Source: Erysipelotrichaceae bacterium (GTDB lineage: Bacteria; Bacillota_I; Bacilli_A; Erysipelotrichales; Erysipelotrichaceae). Taken from it: a stretch of DNA of 64,000 nucleotides. Where the stretch lies: positions 1 through 64,000 of the forward strand of contig JAFRCV010000012.1 in assembly GCA_017404205.1 (NCBI GenBank), in the 5' to 3' direction. Below the pieces are notes generated by a model. The model saw only the letters and a list, made by a program, of their open reading frames with translations. It had not been told where the DNA came from and made no database searches. How positions within the stretch are numbered: position 1 is the stretch's first letter; the number at the start of each line of letters is the position of its first letter. Both the position numbers and the translations under genes were made by a program. Below, piece by piece: positions 12,325-63,152 of the stretch.

Positions 12325-12465
12325 TTAATTAAATGGAATTTCTGGTAGGCTATATGAGCCATTACCGTTATCCTTTAAACCACTAGAATTATTGCCACTT
12401 GTGATAATGATATCTTCAAGAAAGTCAATAATCTCTATTCTTGGCTCATCAAAAGTATTTTTCAT
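12325..12465 (-). CDS. Small peptide B (46 aa), candidate precursor peptide
   Basis: ATG at 12465, TAA at 12325-12327. The N-terminal half reads EPRIEIIDFLEDIIITSG and the C-terminal half is Gly/Asn/Ser-rich (GNNSSGLKDNGNGSYS), ending LPEIPFN. The first half aligns with the neighbouring peptide A around P-x-[LI]-E-[VI]-I-x-F...D-[VI]-I-x-T-S, a leader-like motif followed by a variable tail. From memory, similar short peptides occur near PqqD-like and nucleotidyltransferase genes in gut Firmicutes. No good RBS is seen, so it may be translated by coupling from peptide A, 28 bp upstream. Function unknown. Confidence 0.6.
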   Translation of the reverse strand: MKNTFDEPRIEIIDFLEDIIITSGNNSSGLKDNGNGSYSLPEIPFN

Positions 12466-12493
12466 ATCTATCACAAAATATAGAATAATTCAA

Positions 12494-12607
12494 TTATTCA
12501 ATTGGAGTAGGATATTCATTATCAACATCTGTACTAGTAGCAATAACATCTTCAGAAGAAAAGACTATCACTTCTAATTCAGGTTTATTTAATAACTCTT
12601 TTTTCAT
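12494..12607 (-). CDS. Small peptide A (37 aa), candidate precursor peptide
   Basis: A 37-aa frame from ATG at 12607 to TAA at 12494, with a strong purine-rich RBS (GGGGGGATAAAG) located in the 12-bp gap after the GH43 stop. It reads KPELEVIVFSSEDVIATS, then an acidic tail ending NEYPTPIE. The conserved half matches peptide B; the tails differ completely, which fits a leader/core organisation. Acid-rich leader with a Thr-Ser at the leader/core boundary; no cysteines. It sits at the end of the surface-protein/GH43 unit and near an S26-type peptidase fusion, ABC exporter and PqqD-like gene. Function unknown. Confidence 0.68.
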   Translation of the reverse strand: MKKELLNKPELEVIVFSSEDVIATSTDVDNEYPTPIE

Positions 12608-12619
12608 TCTTTATCCCCC

Positions 12620-14140
12620 CTATTTACCAATAACAACAATTTCAGGTATTGCGATATGACTATTTTCATTAAATGTAATACTTATTGTCGTTATACCTTT
12701 TTTGTATGTATTCAATATTAGTGCAGCATCCAAAGCATCTTTATTATTCCTTGAATACTCACTACTATCATATATTAAATTACCATATTCATAGTTTTTA
12801 TTCAAGTTAGATAACACTATAGATTCAATAGAATTGAAACGATAATTTGCGTTTTTACTATTGTAAATCATTAAGCCTCTAACTTCTGATGCTTTTGGAA
12901 GGTCTATTGTAATTGTGACTTTGCCATTTTCGCTAATATATTCAAATCCTTCATCGAATAATGGTAAGAAACCATCATTTAAATAAGTTGAGCCATCCCC
13001 TTCACTTACACTCACAACGGCACCTTCAGCGATATTCTTATAACCAGTCAGTATTTCTGGCTTTAATTGAGGAGTAGTCGTTGGACCATTTGTCTTTAAA
13101 ACCATCAAGCCACTGCCGTTATCTACAAAGACCGCTTTGTCTAATGCTGGTCTTCTTCCATCCTCGACATCAACATCATTATAGAAAGAATGGTAAACAA
13201 TATATAATTCATCTCCTAATTGTAAGAAAGAACTATGACCTGCTGACTGACTGATTAAGTCATCATTTGTCTTAATAACGACACCACCATCACTAGGTTG
13301 AATCTTTGTATAATTTCCAAGTGGCGAACTAGCTATTGCTTGCCTTACTTGATAATTTGTATTTGAATAAATATAAGTTGAGAATGTTAGATAATAGTTG
13401 CCATCATGATAATAAACTGAACAACCTTCATTAGTGCGCTGACCTTCAGTTATATTTGTGCTACCACCAACTGTAGTCTTGCCAAATTCAGTTAGTTTAG
13501 TTAAAGTCTCATATTTTGGCGTTGTCCAATCTTCCATCTCCATACCTATAACAAAGCCGTTTGTAGTATATGGTGTATCAACATCAGCGATAAGATACAG
13601 ATATTTCTTTCCTGTTACAGGATCAACAAATGGTGAAGCATCAATAACTTTAATGAAGCCTTGTTTACCTTCTTTTCCAATACAAGTAGATGCTAGATAT
13701 GAAGGTATTTCGTCAGCATGATCTTCAAATATAATTAATGGTTCTAAAGCTGTTTTTGAAGGACCTTCATATTCATAGAATGTTCCATTTGGTTCTTCAC
13801 ATACTGCAACAGAAGCATAGAAACTATAATAACGATCATAATAGCTGCCATAATTATCAATTAAATAATTATTAACGCTTCCCCATCTTGCAGAATAGAA
13901 CATGTAATATAGATTAGTTTCTTCATCATAGATTACTTCTGGTGCCCACAAATCTCTATTGCACCATGTTCCACCATTTGGATCTCTCCTAAATACAACT
14001 TTAGGATTTTCCCAATCAGTTAAATTTGTTGATTCATAAGCATAGAAACCAGCGGCTTGGACTTGGCCGGTGGTTCCGTATGCATAAAATTTATTTGTTC
14101 CGTTTTCCCTATCATCATAAACGATGAATGGGTCTGCCAA
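12620..14140 (-). CDS. GH43-family glycoside hydrolase domain, separated from the upstream surface protein by an in-frame TGA
   Basis: The first possible start is TTG at 14140, but homology to the lipoprotein GH43 at 37583-39199 begins earlier: the in-frame codons 14141-14191 encode IAVDDLLYTNVSKSSVK, matching that protein's start. Five-bladed beta-propeller residues are intact: base Asp in ADPFIV, pKa-modulating Asp in VIDASPFVDP, acid Glu in TNEGCSV. A C-terminal beta-rich module (about 370-506; NIAEGAVVSVSEGDG to PEIVVIGK) resembles the F5/8-like domains of its paralogues. No signal peptide of its own and no RBS before the TTG. Most likely the C-terminal enzyme of a formerly continuous secreted protein, acting on arabinan/xylan-type chains. 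Whether it is translated separately, by readthrough, or not at all is open. Confidence 0.75.
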   Translation of the reverse strand: MADPFIVYDDRENGTNKFYAYGTTGQVQAAGFYAYESTNLTDWENPKVVFRRDPNGGTWCNRDLWAPEVIYDEETNLYYMFYSARWGSVNNYLIDNYGSYYDRYYSFYASVAVCEEPNGTFYEYEGPSKTALEPLIIFEDHADEIPSYLASTCIGKEGKQGFIKVIDASPFVDPVTGKKYLYLIADVDTPYTTNGFVIGMEMEDWTTPKYETLTKLTEFGKTTVGGSTNITEGQRTNEGCSVYYHDGNYYLTFSTYIYSNTNYQVRQAIASSPLGNYTKIQPSDGGVVIKTNDDLISQSAGHSSFLQLGDELYIVYHSFYNDVDVEDGRRPALDKAVFVDNGSGLMVLKTNGPTTTPQLKPEILTGYKNIAEGAVVSVSEGDGSTYLNDGFLPLFDEGFEYISENGKVTITIDLPKASEVRGLMIYNSKNANYRFNSIESIVLSNLNKNYEYGNLIYDSSEYSRNNKDALDAALILNTYKKGITTISITFNENSHIAIPEIVVIGK

Positions 14141-14191: not shown

Positions 14192-14194
14192 TCA
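14192..14194 (-). other. In-frame TGA joining the surface protein and GH43 frames
   Basis: The TGA ends the 1133-aa frame with ASEDL. The next codon continues the same frame for 523 codons into a complete GH43 domain with no shift. Removing this one codon would give a single protein of about 1657 aa with an N-terminal signal peptide. The context on the minus strand is GTGAGGATTTATGAATTG. Confidence 0.85.
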
Positions 14195-17100
14195 TAAATC
14201 CTCACTTGCTTCTATTGCCTTTTCGTTGTATAGATAAATAGCTTTCATTGCGTTAACAAGATTAATCTTATCTTGGTCACTTGAATCAGCATATTTTTCA
14301 ATAATTACATTTGCATAGCTTAATACAGAAGCTGTTACAGATAGTGTGCCTTGTCCACCTTTAGTAACAGTGAAGTTATGTTTAACTGCTAAATCTGGTG
14401 CAGCAACATTTGAAATTGTTACAAAGTATACATTGCCACCATTACGTTTAGGTGTTAGTATTGTATCTCCATCTTTAAATTCAAATACCGATACTGGGCT
14501 ACCATCAGTAATTTGGAAATAGATATTTAAGCTTGTTGTACTCTTTAGATTTAGTGATTGACCATAGAATACAATTCCATCTGTTTCACCAACTACACTT
14601 CTATCGTTTGTAGCATTTGCTTCAACGTTAGAAACATCAATAGCAGCACTTTCTAATTCACTGTTAGCTAAACCGCCATCAGTTTCACCATAATAGATTT
14701 GACAATATGCACCAAAATTTAACATTGAAATTGCAAATGGTTTTAAAGCATGATCAGCTTCAATTAATGACATCAAATATGATTTAGCACTTGTAGTTGC
14801 TTCAAACTTATTTTCACCATTTTCATCTTTAATAACGATATTTCTTTCAGCAACTAATTTAGCTGGAGCTAATGCAGAAAGTTTAACTTCATATCTTCCA
14901 TCTTGCATAGCTTCTAATTCAACTTCCTCGCCATCAACAGTAGCAACATAATTTTCATTATATTCAGGAAGATCATATCTAATATTTTGAGTTACCGTAC
15001 CATCATTATTTAATGTTAAGTTTTGAGCTGCTGATACAGTTCCAACTGATTCAATTGTTAAATCTTTGTCGATGTTATAGAAACGAACATTGTAGAATTC
15101 AGCACCTTTAACTTGAACAAAGTTTAGAATTTTAGTGTCATTAACATACCATGTTTCATTCACACCATTAACATTATCCAAAGGATATTCAACAGTATCA
15201 TCACCATATGTTATAACGACTTTATCATGTTTTTCATAATCTTCATGGATAAGTAAAGCGGCTCCAATACCAGAGTTATTCGCATAATCGCCATAGATAA
15301 CTGCTGTACCTGTAGAGTAGTTAATTGTACCAGCGTTTCTCTTATTGCTTATTCCATATGGATCCCAACAACGAACACCAACATAACTACCATTACTACT
15401 TGTTGAATAAGCACCTACACCGATAGAATCGTGTGTTGCGTTACCGAAGTTCTTAATTTGAATTACATGTGGATCATCATAAGTAGCTTCAACACTAATA
15501 TTCTCTGTTATTTCAAAGAATCTAATATTAATTGTATTTACAGTTGTGCTACTAATTGCCATTTTGAATAAATCGCCATCTTGTGCAACTGTATCAAATC
15601 TAATCTTATAATCTTTATCAATAAAGATTTCAAGTCCATTCCAGCCATTTTCAGGTTTTTCTAATACGATTGGTTCTTTTTCACCATAAGTAAAAATAAT
15701 AGATTCTAGATGTTCTAGTTCAGTTTGTAATGTGCCACCAACACCTGTACCTGTTTTCGTAGCATCACTATGATAATCGCCAACAGTTATAGCAGCTGCT
15801 TGGTGATGTGCACCAGGATAAATTCCTGAACCAGCTTCATATTCGCCATCAAAATAATCAATAGCTGCTTTTGGAGAAGCATATAATGTTCCACCTGTTT
15901 GAGCTGTCCAAGTTGCACCATTTGTGCCAAATGAAACATAGTTTCCTAACATGAAAGTACCAGAAGGACTTGTATAATTACGTCCAAAGTTTGTGAATGT
16001 AACTACACGGTCAGTAATTGCAACATCAACAGTAATATCTTGTTTTAAATTCCAAAGTCTAATAAACATACGGTTCTTTACAGATTGATTTGCTGCACGT
16101 GAAACCTTAAGAATATATTCAATATTTTCAACATCTTCTAGTTCATCATGCCAATTACCTTCAGAATCTAAAAATTTATTTGTATCTACATCAGAAGTAA
16201 AATAGCTTCCTTCTAAATTAGCAACTACATCACCAAATGTGAATGCAGCATTTTCAATAGCTGTATTATAGTCAAAGCTAATAGCAAAACCGTTACTGTT
16301 AGCTTCTGCTTCTGTTTCATATATTCTGTCACTATATGCACTATATGTACCATTTTCACCAGCAAATGTAGCACCACCAGCATTAGCTACCCATGTGCTT
16401 GAAGAAGAAGCTAGTACATTATTGAATGTAAAACTATAGCTATTGCCAAATCTTGCATATAAAGTTGTATTTGAAGTTATAGGTGTATTGAAAGAGAATT
16501 CTTCATCAGAATTTTCTAAATACCAACCAACAAATCTATTGTATCCTTCAGGTATTTCAGGATCTGATGGTCTAGATGCTGTAATACCTTCACCAACTGT
16601 TTGAACTTCACCATATTGTTCGTTGTTTACCATGAATGTTACATCATAGCTTACATCAGTAGCATATACAAAGTTAACACTTATATCATTATTTACTACA
16701 TAATAAATGATTTGATTATTATCAAAGTCTATCGCTAAGATATCACCACTTGCATGTGTATCAGAGAATGTATAAGAACTTGATAGATAATGAACACCGC
16801 TAGCATTTTCTGTTGAAACATTATTTGAACCTATGCCAACAGAAGCATTAGCTAATGGATTTTCAGTTAATGGTTCAAAGCTTTGAATCAAACCATTTGT
16901 ATCAGAATAATTATTTGAAATTATTGTTGAAGTTGAATTGTTTGAAGTATCTTTAGTTGAAAAATATGTATCATATTCTTCACTTATTAAAGTATCATTT
17001 ACTCCATTGACTGCAATTGTATGTTCGTTAGTATAATGCAAAACTAATTTAACATCACCAGGAACATTCCACCAACGAGAAGCCATCGGATTAGTATTTC

Positions 17101-17593
17101 CTGATTTTGCAGCAGCAAATGATACTATTCTTGTTGCAACATCACTTGGCCAAGTAGTTGTTCCATCGTTTGTTTTACAAAGTTCACCAGCAGAATTTAA
17201 ATAGAAATAGCTCTTTATACAATGTGTTCCGCTAGAAGTAACTGAATTAGTTGTAAGCATTTGGTTTCCATAATAAACATCAACAGATGCAATCTCACCT
17301 TGTGGTGCCTGATCATATCTGTTGGTCGCACCGCTACTTGGGCCATTTGCCGTATATCCTCCAGCTGATGTTTTAGCAGTAAATTTATAAGCACCATCAC
17401 TGCCATTTAAAACACTTAAAGTATAGCCTGAGGTTACTTGACGACCATAGCCATGATAAATCTCAATATCATAGCCATCTGTGTCATTACCAGCGCTTAC
17501 TGTCTTTGTATTAACTGTCAATGTTGTAAAAGTCAACATTAAAGCCATTACAAAAACAAGCAATGTTTTAATAATTTTCTTTAATTTGCTCAT
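14192..17593 (-). CDS. Secreted multi-domain surface protein with InlB-type and novel repeats (possibly fused to GH43)
   Basis: An upstream in-frame ATG at 17620 is possible, but GGGGAGGAG lies 7 bp before the ATG at 17593, giving 1133 aa starting MSKLKKIIKTLLVFVMAL, a clear signal peptide ending near TVSAG. Residues about 25-300 form a domain also found in the 2578-aa protein (I-Y-H-G-Y-G-R, NRYD, ASRW, EEYDTYF, YLSSSYT). A Listeria-Bacteroides (InlB B) repeat follows (FVGWYLENSDEEFSFN). Then come several units ending in patterns such as NRMFIRLWNLKQDITV and INIRFFEITENISV. No anchor is present before the TGA. A perfect cre lies 78 bp upstream. Probably a carbohydrate-binding or adhesive surface protein. 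Confidence 0.8.
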   Translation of the reverse strand: MSKLKKIIKTLLVFVMALMLTFTTLTVNTKTVSAGNDTDGYDIEIYHGYGRQVTSGYTLSVLNGSDGAYKFTAKTSAGGYTANGPSSGATNRYDQAPQGEIASVDVYYGNQMLTTNSVTSSGTHCIKSYFYLNSAGELCKTNDGTTTWPSDVATRIVSFAAAKSGNTNPMASRWWNVPGDVKLVLHYTNEHTIAVNGVNDTLISEEYDTYFSTKDTSNNSTSTIISNNYSDTNGLIQSFEPLTENPLANASVGIGSNNVSTENASGVHYLSSSYTFSDTHASGDILAIDFDNNQIIYYVVNNDISVNFVYATDVSYDVTFMVNNEQYGEVQTVGEGITASRPSDPEIPEGYNRFVGWYLENSDEEFSFNTPITSNTTLYARFGNSYSFTFNNVLASSSSTWVANAGGATFAGENGTYSAYSDRIYETEAEANSNGFAISFDYNTAIENAAFTFGDVVANLEGSYFTSDVDTNKFLDSEGNWHDELEDVENIEYILKVSRAANQSVKNRMFIRLWNLKQDITVDVAITDRVVTFTNFGRNYTSPSGTFMLGNYVSFGTNGATWTAQTGGTLYASPKAAIDYFDGEYEAGSGIYPGAHHQAAAITVGDYHSDATKTGTGVGGTLQTELEHLESIIFTYGEKEPIVLEKPENGWNGLEIFIDKDYKIRFDTVAQDGDLFKMAISSTTVNTINIRFFEITENISVEATYDDPHVIQIKNFGNATHDSIGVGAYSTSSNGSYVGVRCWDPYGISNKRNAGTINYSTGTAVIYGDYANNSGIGAALLIHEDYEKHDKVVITYGDDTVEYPLDNVNGVNETWYVNDTKILNFVQVKGAEFYNVRFYNIDKDLTIESVGTVSAAQNLTLNNDGTVTQNIRYDLPEYNENYVATVDGEEVELEAMQDGRYEVKLSALAPAKLVAERNIVIKDENGENKFEATTSAKSYLMSLIEADHALKPFAISMLNFGAYCQIYYGETDGGLANSELESAAIDVSNVEANATNDRSVVGETDGIVFYGQSLNLKSTTSLNIYFQITDGSPVSVFEFKDGDTILTPKRNGGNVYFVTISNVAAPDLAVKHNFTVTKGGQGTLSVTASVLSYANVIIEKYADSSDQDKINLVNAMKAIYLYNEKAIEASEDL

Positions 17594-17670
17594 ATAAAAC
17601 TCCTCCCCTAATAAAAACAAAAATTCTATATTAAGCTAATATATTCCTTATCTTAATTATAAATATAATA

Positions 17671-17684
17671 TGTAAACGCTTACA
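17671..17684. promoter_or_regulatory. cre-type catabolite-response site upstream of the surface protein/GH43 gene
   Basis: TGTAAACGCTTACA fits the consensus TGWNANCGNTNWCA at every position and is palindromic. It lies about 78 bp before the start codon, next to a minus-strand TATTAT, where CcpA binding would repress transcription when preferred sugars are present. Confidence 0.75.
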
Positions 17685-17742: not shown

Positions 17743-19347
17743 TTAAATCTTGTAGATCTTATCTGCTAATTCAAGTGCTGCTTTCTTATGAGTAACAATT
17801 ATTACTGTTTTATTTGTTAAACTACGAATATTATTCAATAATTGTTCTTCAGTATTTTCATCTAAAGATGAAGTTGCTTCATCAAATAAAAGAATTGGTC
17901 TATTGGAATAAATCGCTCTAGCAATAGCTAGTCTTTGAATTTGTCCTTCTGATAAGCCATTACCTTTTTCACCTAATTTTAGATTTAAATCTTTTGTAAA
18001 TTCTTTTGCACATGCAATATTTAACGCATCCTCAATTTTATCATCATTTATCTCACCATTAAAGCTAACAATTTCTCTTATTGTGCCAGATAAAAGCTGA
18101 TTACCTTGAGGTACATAGGCAAATAAATGACGATAGCGATAATCTAATGTATCATCATCAATATAGATGCCTTTTGTATCATAAAGATTCATTAATAATT
18201 TAAGAACAGTTGATTTACCGATTCCACTTTTTCCAGTTAATACAACAATTTCACCTTTTTTAACTTTTAGATTAAAATCTTTTAAAACTTCTACACTATC
18301 TTCATAAGAAAAACTAACATTCTTTAATCCTAATTCTTTAAAGTCTTTATCATAATAATCTTTTATATAATCATCATCAAATTGTGTGCCTTCTAATTCG
18401 CATTCTTCTACTTCCAACATTCTTTCACATGATGATAGAAGTGCATAATACTGAGGAACAAATCCAGTAATGTTGGCAAGTGGAGTTTGAATTTGCCCAA
18501 CAAGTTGAGTTACAGCTACAAATGTTCCATAACTTATATTGCCAGTAAATATTCCATAAGCACAATAAATTGTATTAACGACATAAATTAGTCTCATCAC
18601 AAAGCTAAAACCTACATTACAAATATTAGAGAAAGTTATTCTTTCCATTCTCTTCTTTTTGTGATTAGCCATATATAGGTTAGCTTCATTTAAACTTTCT
18701 ATTTCTTTAGAAAATGCTTTGACAATCAACAAATTACTGATGCGTTCTTGTAGAAATACTCTTAATTTGCCATCGCTTTCTTGAATTCTTTTGTGTAATA
18801 CTTTTAATCGCTTTCTAAAATAATATGTAAAAACAATAGCAATAATACCACAAGGTACTAATAAATAAATGATTTTAGGAAGCAAATAAACAATTGACAC
18901 AAGAGCAGCTATAAGCATTACAAGCATTCCAATTAGCCCTGGCAATATATTTACTAAGCCATTAGAAATCACTACCGCATCATTAGTTAATTTATTCATC
19001 CATTCACCAGAATGAACATTGATAATCTCTGAATATTTTCTGTTTAAAATGTTTTTAAATAATCTTTCTTTAAAAAGATTTTCATAAGTGCTATGAGCGT
19101 TTTCTTTTATTTGCCTTTCGATTGCTTTTAGGATGATAAAGAATAAAGAAACAGCTATTAATAAAAATGCATATAATTTTAAATTATCGCCATTTTTATT
19201 TACAGCGCTATTTATTAGCGATCTCAAGATGAATGCATTTATAACACCTGTTAAGCCACCTAAAAAACTTATTATTACTAAAATGTAAATAAAATATTTT
19301 TTATTTTTTATTGTTTCATTTAAGTATTTATTTACTTTTTTCTCCAT
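17743..19347 (-). CDS. ABC exporter, fused membrane and ATPase domains
   Basis: About 534 aa from the ATG at 19347 (a TTG two codons earlier is also open). An ABC transmembrane type-1 region with six helices spans about 20-310. The nucleotide-binding domain follows: Walker A TGKSGIGKSTVLKLL, Q-loop AYVPQGNQLL, signature LSEGQIQRLAIARA and Walker B PILLFDEATSSLDE. Homodimeric exporters of this type move lipids, drugs or peptides outwards; there is no N-terminal C39 peptidase. The start overlaps the stop of the S26/nucleotidyltransferase gene, so the two are co-translated. Given the small peptides nearby, peptide export is plausible but not shown. Confidence 0.88.
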   Translation of the reverse strand: MEKKVNKYLNETIKNKKYFIYILVIISFLGGLTGVINAFILRSLINSAVNKNGDNLKLYAFLLIAVSLFFIILKAIERQIKENAHSTYENLFKERLFKNILNRKYSEIINVHSGEWMNKLTNDAVVISNGLVNILPGLIGMLVMLIAALVSIVYLLPKIIYLLVPCGIIAIVFTYYFRKRLKVLHKRIQESDGKLRVFLQERISNLLIVKAFSKEIESLNEANLYMANHKKKRMERITFSNICNVGFSFVMRLIYVVNTIYCAYGIFTGNISYGTFVAVTQLVGQIQTPLANITGFVPQYYALLSSCERMLEVEECELEGTQFDDDYIKDYYDKDFKELGLKNVSFSYEDSVEVLKDFNLKVKKGEIVVLTGKSGIGKSTVLKLLMNLYDTKGIYIDDDTLDYRYRHLFAYVPQGNQLLSGTIREIVSFNGEINDDKIEDALNIACAKEFTKDLNLKLGEKGNGLSEGQIQRLAIARAIYSNRPILLFDEATSSLDENTEEQLLNNIRSLTNKTVIIVTHKKAALELADKIYKI

Positions 19348-20803
19348 GATCAAACAGTATGTGCATTTCTGCTTTTAAATGTCTTTTTTCTTTATCTATA
19401 AAAATAATTCTATATGCTCTTAAGATATATGTAAATGGTAAAAGAATAGGAAGCTTTTTCAATATTGGATATATTTTAGACATATCTGTATATTTTGGAA
19501 AAACTCTTTCTAAAACATATGCCAATTTGCCCTTCTTTTTCATCTTCAAGCGAATGTTATTATCAAGACTTCCATATGCATTACCAGAAAAGATAAAACA
19601 TATTTCACTAGCTGGAACATCTTGATTGGTTTCAAATAGAATATGAATCATATTCAATATATAATCATGGAAATCTTTTAATCCACATTCTTCAATAATT
19701 CTGTCAGCTACTTCAAAATCAATCTTTAATTCTTTTCTAATGTAATATATATCAAGATATTGTCTAATTCCTACACCAAAATTGTTGTAATGCTTTTTAA
19801 AATGACAGATGCTATATGCATAAAAATCTTCATTACTCATATGATATAAATATTCATTATTTGAATCTTTTATAGCTTTAGAAAAATAATCTTTGAAATA
19901 TGGATAATCATAAATGTCTTCAAATAGTTGCCAATGAGCTTCAAAATTAAGAAATTCTTTACGGTATGAGTTTTCTATTTCGCCTTTTATTTCTTGGTAT
20001 TCTCTTTGTAAAAAGACCTCACTTGTCTTTTCAATATCGCTAACTAAAAAATCATTATCAGCGAATTGTCTAATGTTCTTTATTGGATATAAATTATTTG
20101 TGATAGCTCCCTTAAAAGGTAAGTGCTTTACTTTTTTATCATCTAATTCTTTAAAGATTCTCTCTCTTTCATCATCAAAAAGTAATTTTCTTTGAAGTGC
20201 CAAATAATATAAATCTTCCCAATCAGCATATGTCTTTTTAGGACATAAGTCTTTATTAATCTTTGGAAATACATAAGCACAAATTGATTGTTTCTTTACT
20301 AAATTAAAAAGCGCTTTATAATCAACATCTAAATTGTATTCTTCATCATTTATAACACTTCTAATAAGTGCCAATGTATCACTATATAATTTCGGAACCT
20401 CTTTATGACGATAATATCTTTCTCTTTTATATAAATCTCTTTGTAATGCTTTCAAATAATTTAAATATTCTTGATCTTCAATAGATACGTAGCGTCCACT
20501 TTTAAAATAGCCAACAACTTTGCCTATAACAGCTTTAAAAGGAACATCTTCTATTTCTATTTGATTATCACCACATATTTCATAATGATCTTTTTTGATA
20601 GACATAATACGATGAAGTACCAGCTTATCATCTCTTTTAAATAATGCCATATCATCAACTTCTAATAAACCATTAACTTTTTCTATTTTGACTAAGTCTT
20701 TTGTTTCATCTAAAAGAGGAAGCATGCTGATGCCAGAAAAACTTGTGATAACATAATTATCTCTATTTAAAATATCTTCAATTTTCTTTTCTTCTGTGTT
20801 CAT
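19328..20803 (-). CDS. Fusion of S24/S26-like peptidase domain and NTP_transf_5-type nucleotidyltransferase
   Basis: Residues about 15-105 look like an S26 (SipW-like) peptidase: the serine motif SFSGISMLP and a later LVLHRIMSI containing the likely catalytic histidine. Residues about 150-460 resemble the uncharacterised nucleotidyltransferase family PF14907, with LPFKGAITNNLYP and RQFADNDFLV in the expected K-G...R...D-x-D order. The C-terminal RAYRIIFIDKEKRH is basic. GTG at 20821 would be inside a palindrome; ATG at 20803 seems better, though it has no clear RBS. PF14907 proteins occur near PqqD-like and ABC genes in peptide-maturation clusters. No membrane helix is obvious. The role is a proposal: peptide processing plus nucleotidylation. 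Confidence 0.7.
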   Translation of the reverse strand: MNTEEKKIEDILNRDNYVITSFSGISMLPLLDETKDLVKIEKVNGLLEVDDMALFKRDDKLVLHRIMSIKKDHYEICGDNQIEIEDVPFKAVIGKVVGYFKSGRYVSIEDQEYLNYLKALQRDLYKRERYYRHKEVPKLYSDTLALIRSVINDEEYNLDVDYKALFNLVKKQSICAYVFPKINKDLCPKKTYADWEDLYYLALQRKLLFDDERERIFKELDDKKVKHLPFKGAITNNLYPIKNIRQFADNDFLVSDIEKTSEVFLQREYQEIKGEIENSYRKEFLNFEAHWQLFEDIYDYPYFKDYFSKAIKDSNNEYLYHMSNEDFYAYSICHFKKHYNNFGVGIRQYLDIYYIRKELKIDFEVADRIIEECGLKDFHDYILNMIHILFETNQDVPASEICFIFSGNAYGSLDNNIRLKMKKKGKLAYVLERVFPKYTDMSKIYPILKKLPILLPFTYILRAYRIIFIDKEKRHLKAEMHILFDHGEKSK

Positions 20804-20815
20804 CTTAATTAATAT

Positions 20816-20833
20816 AGACACCCTAGGGTGTCT
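20816..20833. promoter_or_regulatory. 18-bp perfect palindrome in the leader of the S26/nucleotidyltransferase gene
   Basis: AGACACCCTAGGGTGTCT is perfectly self-complementary and lies 13-30 bp before the ATG. It could be an operator for a dimeric regulator or a hairpin that hides the translation start. Confidence 0.6.
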
Positions 20834-61973: not shown

Positions 61974-62420
61974 TCATATTTTTTTAATTAATCTACTTAT
62001 CTCTGATTCAAAATTGTTTTCTATTTCATCCATGATGAATTTAGTTTCATCTTTATTTTTTGGTAAATCTTTTTTATTATAGATTAATAATACTTTAATG
62101 GTATCTGTCTTATTATTTATATATAATATACATCTATTGCCAGATGTTTTTGGTGATTCTTTAGTTAAAGCTACTTTAAAGTCATATTTGCACAAATACT
62201 CATGGTCATCATATTTCAATTCATCAATTTGTGATGATGACTGAGTGGTGTTACTTTCTATTCTTAAACGGCTTAAATCTTCAATAATAGATTTTTTTGT
62301 ATAATCCCATTGTTTTCCTTTATACTTTTTTTCAAAATTCTTTAAATAATGATTCTTAGAGTAATCTGTAAAAGCAACAGAAAACAATTCGTTATTTTTA
62401 GGTAATTGGTGTATCAACAT
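61974..62420 (-). CDS. Putative toxin partner of the Panacea-type antitoxin
   Basis: 148-aa charged protein overlapping the upstream antitoxin gene by 23 bp. It starts MLIHQLPKNNELFSV. The middle shows KNHYLKNFEKKYKGKQWDYT, with later LYINNKTDTIKVLLIYNKKDLPKNKDETKF, a beta-hairpin-plus-helix pattern reminiscent of RelE/ParE-like folds. I cannot assign a family confidently. Its coupling to a HTH-Panacea protein is what suggests a toxin. No membrane segment. Confidence 0.55.
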   Translation of the reverse strand: MLIHQLPKNNELFSVAFTDYSKNHYLKNFEKKYKGKQWDYTKKSIIEDLSRLRIESNTTQSSSQIDELKYDDHEYLCKYDFKVALTKESPKTSGNRCILYINNKTDTIKVLLIYNKKDLPKNKDETKFIMDEIENNFESEISRLIKKI

Positions 62421-63081
62421 GGTCTGGGTCTTCCTGAAGTATTAACTCGTAAGGGATTATTTCACCGTCTCTGCATGCCATCCAAGGCTTTTGTTGATGA
62501 GTATAGCTCACTATCTGTTTAGTGTCGATGTTTCTCCATTTTTTACAAATATCGTCTATCTCTTTTAATTCTTCTTTAGATAACAAATCAAATGTATTGT
62601 TAAAAGTTGCTGTCTTTATCGTAATCATGTTGGCTCCGCCAGAAAGACATTCAATTTGAATTTTCCCTTTATAGGCCAAATCTTCGGTTAATTCTAAAAA
62701 AGGATCAGCTAAAGGCCCATAGTCTTTGTGTCTATATAAAACACCAGACATTGGCTCAAGCGTATTATAAAAATGTCTAAAATCAGCGAAATATAATAGC
62801 TTAGCTAGCTTTGTTTTGGGTAAGCCACTCTTTTTGAATTTAGAAAGAATATATAAATACATTTGTTTAAACTTCTCAATGTTTTGAATCCCATAAAAAA
62901 ATTCTTCTACTGGTATACCATAAATATTCGCTAATTCATTTATTTGATTAATATCAGGCTCATTTTCATTTTTTTCCATTTTTATATATGTTTGTCTTGT
63001 TATACCAAGCTTGTCTGATATTTCTTGTTGAGAATAGTTAAATTTTTTTCGTAAAGAAATCAAATTATTAAAAACACTCAT
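62398..63081 (-). CDS. Panacea-domain antitoxin with N-terminal XRE HTH (PanA-like, DUF4065)
   Basis: AAGGAGG lies 8 bp before the ATG at 63081, giving 227 aa; an earlier start at 63144 has no RBS. Residues about 5-65 form a Cro/C1 helix-turn-helix (SLRKKFNYSQQEISDKLGITRQTYIKME). Residues about 80-220 match the Panacea/DUF4065 (SocA-like) domain: KTKLAKLLYFADFRHF and HKDYGPLADPF. Panacea proteins act as antitoxins that neutralise many unrelated toxins, and the HTH probably represses the operon. It overlaps the downstream partner by 23 bp. Family call is firm; function with this partner is inferred. Confidence 0.85.
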   Translation of the reverse strand: MSVFNNLISLRKKFNYSQQEISDKLGITRQTYIKMEKNENEPDINQINELANIYGIPVEEFFYGIQNIEKFKQMYLYILSKFKKSGLPKTKLAKLLYFADFRHFYNTLEPMSGVLYRHKDYGPLADPFLELTEDLAYKGKIQIECLSGGANMITIKTATFNNTFDLLSKEELKEIDDICKKWRNIDTKQIVSYTHQQKPWMACRDGEIIPYELILQEDPDHVDTPIT

Positions 63082-63115
63082 TATAATAGCCTCCTTTTTT
63101 ATGTAAATTAATTTT

Positions 63116-63152
63116 AACATATCTATGTTAATAAATATATACAAATATGTAT
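63116..63152. promoter_or_regulatory. Operator candidates of the toxin-antitoxin operon
   Basis: AACATA-TC-TATGTT (63116-63129) and ATACA-AATA-TGTAT (63139-63152) are two dyads just upstream of the antitoxin start. A minus-strand extended -10 (TGTTAAAAT) overlaps the first. This is the usual layout for autorepression by an XRE protein. Confidence 0.6.

Follow-up and report, generated by a model that had tools for sequence, protein, structure and literature searches.

Two adjacent small open reading frames, P1 and P2, in a stretch of 64,000 nucleotides from an Erysipelotrichaceae bacterium (hereafter the window) look like real genes that gene callers missed, and they belong to a leader-peptide family partnered with large secreted proteins. 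Sequence comparisons support both the leader family and its secreted-protein partnership well, and the peptides are probably modified and exported. Whether P1 and P2 are the precursors of a RiPP-type exported peptide system that works with a large secreted protein, docking model included, is a question on which our judgement is evenly balanced. The features of the cluster are listed in Table 1.

Table 1 Features of the peptide cluster in the window.
Feature	Positions	Strand	Basis or remark
GC hairpin with T-run, terminator-like, after P2	12299-12319	minus	sequence and computed fold
P2 precursor peptide MKNTFDEPRIEIIDFLEDIIITSGNNSSGLKDNGNGSYSLPEIPFN	12325-12465	minus	46-aa ORF and profile matches
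P2 tail with DNGNGSYSLPEIPFN	12325-12375	minus	tail common to C-termini of anchored proteins
P2 leader	12397-12465	minus	
P1 precursor peptide MKKELLNKPELEVIVFSSEDVIATSTDVDNEYPTPIE	12494-12607	minus	37-aa ORF, profile matches and G034 counterpart MENINKPTIEIIKISSKDVLATSDEYGTPIE
P1 tail TDVDNEYPTPIE	12494-12532	minus	
P1 leader, M to T-S	12533-12607	minus	
RBS-like AGGGGGGAT of P1	12613-12621	minus	sequence; AGGGGGG just upstream of P1
GH43 part of large secreted protein	12620-14140	minus	frame of the 14192-17620 ORF, TGA between
Large secreted protein, 1142 aa	14192-17620	minus	
Domain X of large secreted protein	14198-15028	minus	
cre-like palindrome TGTAAGCGTTTACA, perfect	17671-17684		upstream of large secreted protein
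ABC exporter (ABC_membrane and ABC_tran)	17743-19353	minus	peptidase C39 part not seen
S26-like peptidase domain/PF14907 fusion	19328-20821	minus	
PF14907 "nucleotidyltransferase" part of fusion	19634-20326	minus	
S26-like domain of fusion	about 20430-20803	minus	
PqqD-type RRE/chaperone, 88 aa	20982-21248	minus	

P1 starts 12 nt past the stop codon that ends the GH43 ORF, and P2 follows P1 after 28 nt on the minus strand. The original prediction regarded both frames as real, with a ribosome-binding site for the first and a terminator after the second. Both frames are present where it had placed them, and the RBS-like AGGGGGG is found just upstream of P1. No clear RBS was seen in the sequence upstream of P2, whose translation may be coupled to that of P1. 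The terminator holds only in part: sequence and computed fold reveal a hairpin and T-run after P2, but the hairpin is missing from the list of the consensus terminator scan. The counts of consensus promoters and terminators were at the background level. Peptides of the P1/P2 type matched no Pfam or NCBIfam family.

The two peptides share a leader whose consensus, in the N-terminal half, is P-x-I-E-[VI]-I-x-F-x-x-E-D-[VI]-I-x-T-S. A two-row profile of P1 and P2 retrieved three more short ORFs in the source genome (G000, 1.62 Mb) with E values of 2e-5 to 3e-4, and a five-row profile retrieved two further G000 peptides and several in the congener G034, including the syntenic tandem peptides at G034:C46 (E 8e-7 and 5e-6). 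Since both profiles retrieve further peptides at such low E values, the shared motif recurs beyond chance. A 16-row profile brought the number of leader peptides to eight in G000 and ten in G034. The G034:C46 locus (L070) is the syntenic counterpart of the window and comprises the end of a PF14907 protein, an ABC gene, a gene for a large secreted protein, and three tandem peptide genes. The leader occurs in 12 of the 265 order-level genomes and, at E <= 1e-4, in 19 of the 394 class-level genomes; two Eubacterium MAGs also have it. The leader/core pattern noted in the original prediction is thus a recurrent one, consisting of short ORFs with a constant N-terminal leader and a variable C-terminal part, and the motif is conserved in related genomes, on which that prediction had staked itself.

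The leader is also fused to proteins of 100-340 aa in G003 and G269. In G003, it opens proteins of 104-343 aa (L077 at G003:C25; L032 at G003:C33), two of which carry Hint/intein-like domains, and judged by these G003 fusions the leader would also direct larger cargo. Another arrangement is seen at G083:C120 (L065, 10809-11692), where six tandem leader peptides with Thr-rich tails form an array beside genes for PqqD, glycosyltransferase-like proteins, an HprK-like protein, and an ABC protein; apart from PqqD and the HprK-related match, these neighbours were assigned by sequence reading. Since the Thr-rich tails adjoin glycosyltransferase-like genes, glycosylation of the G083 cores is suggested.

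The partnership with secreted proteins is clearest in G000, where all eight peptide genes sit just downstream (3') of genes encoding large secreted proteins with domain X. A peptide accompanies seven of the eight domain-X genes but none of the genes for about 12 other large secreted proteins of this genome (Fisher p about 1e-4, computed by hand). At nine loci of the class that belong to other families and were picked by the leader alone, every peptide adjoins a secreted-protein gene, which it follows directly at five loci and precedes directly at four. Signal peptides in this set were assigned by visual inspection, two locus pairs come from related genomes, and nine of nine is a plain count. 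In the Eubacterium MAGs, a giant gene is followed after about 20 nt by the peptide gene, and the spacing between peptide and secreted-protein genes is 2-20 nt in genome after genome. The original prediction of secreted peptide precursors was sound as to the leader/core organization but missed both this coupling and the tails shared with anchored proteins described below. A reading as a freely secreted peptide leaves the coupling to large secreted genes unexplained.

Domain X comprises ~280 aa and matched no Pfam family above the cut-off. Its predicted structure (mean pLDDT 93.9) consists of two Ig-like sandwiches, each followed by helices, and the structural matches are generic Ig-like folds with Z below 8, mostly over the second sandwich. 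No recognisable domain X was found in the large proteins of the f2-family cassettes, and domain X is therefore not a universal docking site. G238 has more than 20 domain-X matches versus a single detected leader peptide. We considered whether a C-terminal transmembrane segment of the large protein itself substitutes for the peptide as a rule and rejected this idea: it fits some large proteins, and several have neither. The large protein in L140 has an anchor-like C-terminal end.

In the window, an in-frame TGA between 14140 and 14192 on the minus strand splits the domain-X ORF from the GH43 ORF. In the G034 protein at L111:2668-7254, a domain-X region runs uninterrupted into a similar C-terminus. 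The TGA may be a nonsense change, a site of readthrough, or an assembly error. Sites similar to the cre-like palindrome at 17671-17684 lie upstream of the secreted-protein genes at G000:C16 and G000:C10.

The original prediction also linked the peptides to PqqD, PF14907, and ABC genes. This link is strongly supported: complete cassettes encode PqqD, PF14907, and an ABC exporter together with an S26-type domain and an HprK-like kinase. These functions are encoded by separate genes in the complete cassettes of G285, G281, G280, and G269. In the window, the RRE/PqqD protein is encoded in the same cluster as the peptides. A contig scan with the S26-PF14907 protein yielded just two named relatives, matching its PF14907 part. 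No HprK-like kinase gene lies beside the window cassette, and one is located on another contig of G000. A second PqqD, HprK-like, and PF14907 set of this genome, at G000:C1 (L010, 9085-11188), has no leader peptide detected beside it and may act in trans. The palindrome AGACACCCTAGGGTGTCT at 20816-20833, between the PqqD and S26-PF14907 genes of the window, is terminator-like or operator-like.

The S26-like domain matched no Pfam family. A standalone homologue matches TIGR02228, the NCBIfam archaeal-type signal peptidase (E 3e-5), and Ser26 and His64 in A5 are invariant among five homologues. The predicted fold of the window domain (mean pLDDT 72) gives SEC11A, LexA, and SipA as leading Foldseek matches, with probability 1.00, yet the best E value is 5e-3. 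These features assign it to the S24/S26 peptidase fold with a Ser nucleophile and a His/Lys base, and peptidase activity is predicted. A different enzyme accompanies the leader at G000:C13 and G034:C36, where a leader peptide containing CASTGCD is paired with an rSAM/SPASM maturase, followed at G000:C13 by a PqqD gene. Both maturases score below every equivalog cut-off, and no rSAM gene is present in the window cassette.

The original prediction held that the tails of P1 and P2 are unrelated and diverge completely. This view did not survive the comparison with G034, which repeats both tail classes: NEYPTPIE of P1 resembles DEYGTPIE, and DNGNGSYSLPEIPFN of P2 resembles DNGDGSYGLPEVPLP. Many other peptide tails end with P-[IVMLF]-x-P-[FL] or P-[IVM]-x-x-F. 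Furthermore, two TM-anchored proteins of G000 end with sequences that match the P2 tail (local alignment scores of 58 and 51, with no score above 27 among the other 426 C-termini), and so does one TM-anchored protein of G034 (63 versus at most 25 for the others). These anchored proteins sit beside cassettes other than that of the window. The tail of the C11 peptide, TEEDVTPIKPF, finds its best match in REDVIPIKPY, the C-terminus of a G034 domain-X protein (40 versus at most 26), and the last residues of this built-in tail are predicted at a pLDDT of only 67. Three kinds of carriers thus bear such tails: leader peptides, anchored proteins, and a domain-X protein. The tails do not form an LPXTG-like motif with a TM segment and a basic tail; they stop at, or a few residues past, their motif.

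Within a cassette, the peptide tail also tends to resemble that of an adjacent TM protein or lipoprotein. The pairs of peptide and anchored protein include SNDLPFIENK and SNDLPFVEVVDD in G002, NCPNETEIL and GPNETEILP in G238, and NTLSELSVI and NALIEIEVD at G000:C13. In a distant family (G329, G393), the lipoprotein adjoining its leader peptide ends with DDEDNVDLPYVPLG (tail LPYVPLG). Cognate tails are more alike than shuffled ones (p = 7e-4, seven pairs after one ortholog pair was dropped), and those at G000:C10 and G000:C16 do not match. Because the test came after the pairs had been noticed and because these two pairs mismatch, the resemblance of cognate tails is strong but not independent evidence.

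A mechanism can be proposed that connects these components. The PqqD protein would bind the leader through the β-strand P-x-I-E-V-I-x-F, and PF14907, with the kinase or rSAM enzyme where present, would modify the peptide; the near-invariant T-S may be the modified site. Cleavage at or near T-S by the S26 domain would then remove the leader, and the ABC protein would export the remaining peptide. Outside the cell, the short acidic tail may serve as a ligand for docking, through which the co-encoded giant protein is tethered, assembled, or competitively released, and the anchored protein would display the same tail on a flexible stalk. We put forward the docking of the tail to its partner protein only tentatively. 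The cassettes may possibly, though we lean against it, constitute a surface-display or assembly system, in which a PqqD-guided, S26-processed peptide and a membrane-anchored stalk share a tail docking or releasing the giant protein, with the tails co-varying between cassettes.

The same components can be read in other ways. The peptides might be conventional RiPP signals or bacteriocins that are secreted and connected with the secreted proteins for polysaccharide utilisation by shared regulation alone; the anchored proteins with similar tails might then confer immunity or act as decoys or receptors. Systems of this kind typically include PqqD, an ABC exporter, and a radical-SAM maturase. Carbon control is indicated by the cre-like site and by sugar-type regulators in the vicinity of the large genes, and the Thr-rich array of G083 with its glycosyltransferase-like genes resembles a classical peptide product. 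However, signals or bacteriocins explain neither the same tail at the C-terminus of a domain-X protein nor the 2-20 nt coupling to large secreted genes, genome after genome, and the tails are short and acidic, which makes this explanation somewhat unlikely. The occurrence of one tail on three kinds of carriers, its short motif with a conserved P-x-x-P-[FL], and its variation by cassette, as in the substrate motifs of dedicated enzymes, would also suit a sorting or processing signal, for which the peptides and anchored proteins would be substrates of one envelope enzyme (a transpeptidase, protease, or modification enzyme) rather than docking ligands. Yet no candidate envelope enzyme is constantly found beside the cassettes read, and no sortase-like arrangement is seen, and we consider such a signal decidedly unlikely.

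The lack of a clear RBS for P2 would fit an artefact, in which the motif and its adjacency stem from conserved non-functional small ORFs or from remnants left behind large genes at their 3' ends. Against this stand the conservation of the leader across many families with low E values in whole-genome searches, the conserved tails, in-frame starts, and syntenic tandem copies, and the association of the peptides with maturation genes; an artefact is highly improbable.

If the proposed docking system is correct, RiPP-type machinery would build the cell surface instead of producing an antibiotic, cofactor, or signal. It would also give a job to widespread unexplained genes (PF14907, the HprK-like kinase, PqqD, and the soluble S26 domain) and to small ORFs absent from the searched annotation families, and would tie RiPP-type chemistry to giant secreted proteins. 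Elsewhere in the window, at 61974-63144, the gene for an HTH and SocA/Panacea antitoxin-like protein and the 148-aa ORF after it may form a toxin-antitoxin pair.

The enzyme set appears to follow a RiPP-type logic close to that of phosphorylated lasso-peptide clusters. By our reading of the family, we take the nucleotidyltransferase of pseudomycoidin-type clusters to be PF14907, and the Y-x-x-P-like start of the peptide leaders presumably resembles that of lasso leaders. The nearest biochemistry is that of pseudomycoidin-type lasso peptides, which involve a kinase and a nucleotidyltransferase and in which the phosphorylated peptide receives a hexose in vivo; fusions of B2 with the nucleotidyltransferase are reported for clusters of phosphorylated or phosphoglycosylated lasso peptides in Firmicutes (PMC8498205). 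Paeninodin and pseudomycoidin clusters have in common with our cassettes a PqqD-type B1 protein, an HprK-like kinase, a nucleotidyltransferase, sometimes fused to B2, and an ABC exporter (PMC8498205). The cassettes differ in having an S26-type domain in place of B2, short acidic tails, and giant secreted partners. Since the transglutaminase-fold B2 leader peptidase PF13471 (Transglut_core3) is absent from all six genomes searched (E <= 0.01), the cassettes are not lasso clusters by this feature, and we rejected that identity. No lasso cyclase (asparagine-synthetase-like, PF00733) was recognised by eye in the cassettes read.

Partial matches also connect the cassettes to the HPr-rel-A (TIGR04352, TIGR04353) and SynChlorMet (ScmC, ScmD) systems of NCBIfam, which likewise combine an HprK-related kinase with a PqqD-type chaperone. 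The scores stay far below the curated HPr-rel-A cut-offs, at 19.1 bits versus 200 for the G285 kinase (TIGR04352) and 19.7 bits versus 35 for the window PqqD (TIGR04353). To our knowledge, the descriptions of both systems include neither this type of precursor nor an S26 domain or secreted partner. The openly licensed literature yielded no paper on PF14907, none under the names HPr-rel-A or SynChlorMet, and no description of the partnership between peptide and giant secreted protein or of a tail on three carriers. With the rSAM/SPASM systems (TIGR04463, Clo7bot, and the ranthipeptide and sactipeptide maturases), the loci G000:C13 and G034:C36 share a leader peptide with an rSAM/SPASM maturase, whereas these maturases fall under all equivalog cut-offs and the window cassette lacks such a gene. 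LPXTG/sortase anchoring likewise uses a short C-terminal signal on secreted proteins. In contrast, the tail described here lies at the extreme C-terminus with no TM segment or basic residues after it, and it is carried by N-terminally anchored proteins and leader peptides. The peptide-maturation cassette is thus a variant of known, partly named systems, and the end sequence shared with membrane-anchored neighbours hints at an undescribed mode of cell-surface attachment or signalling.
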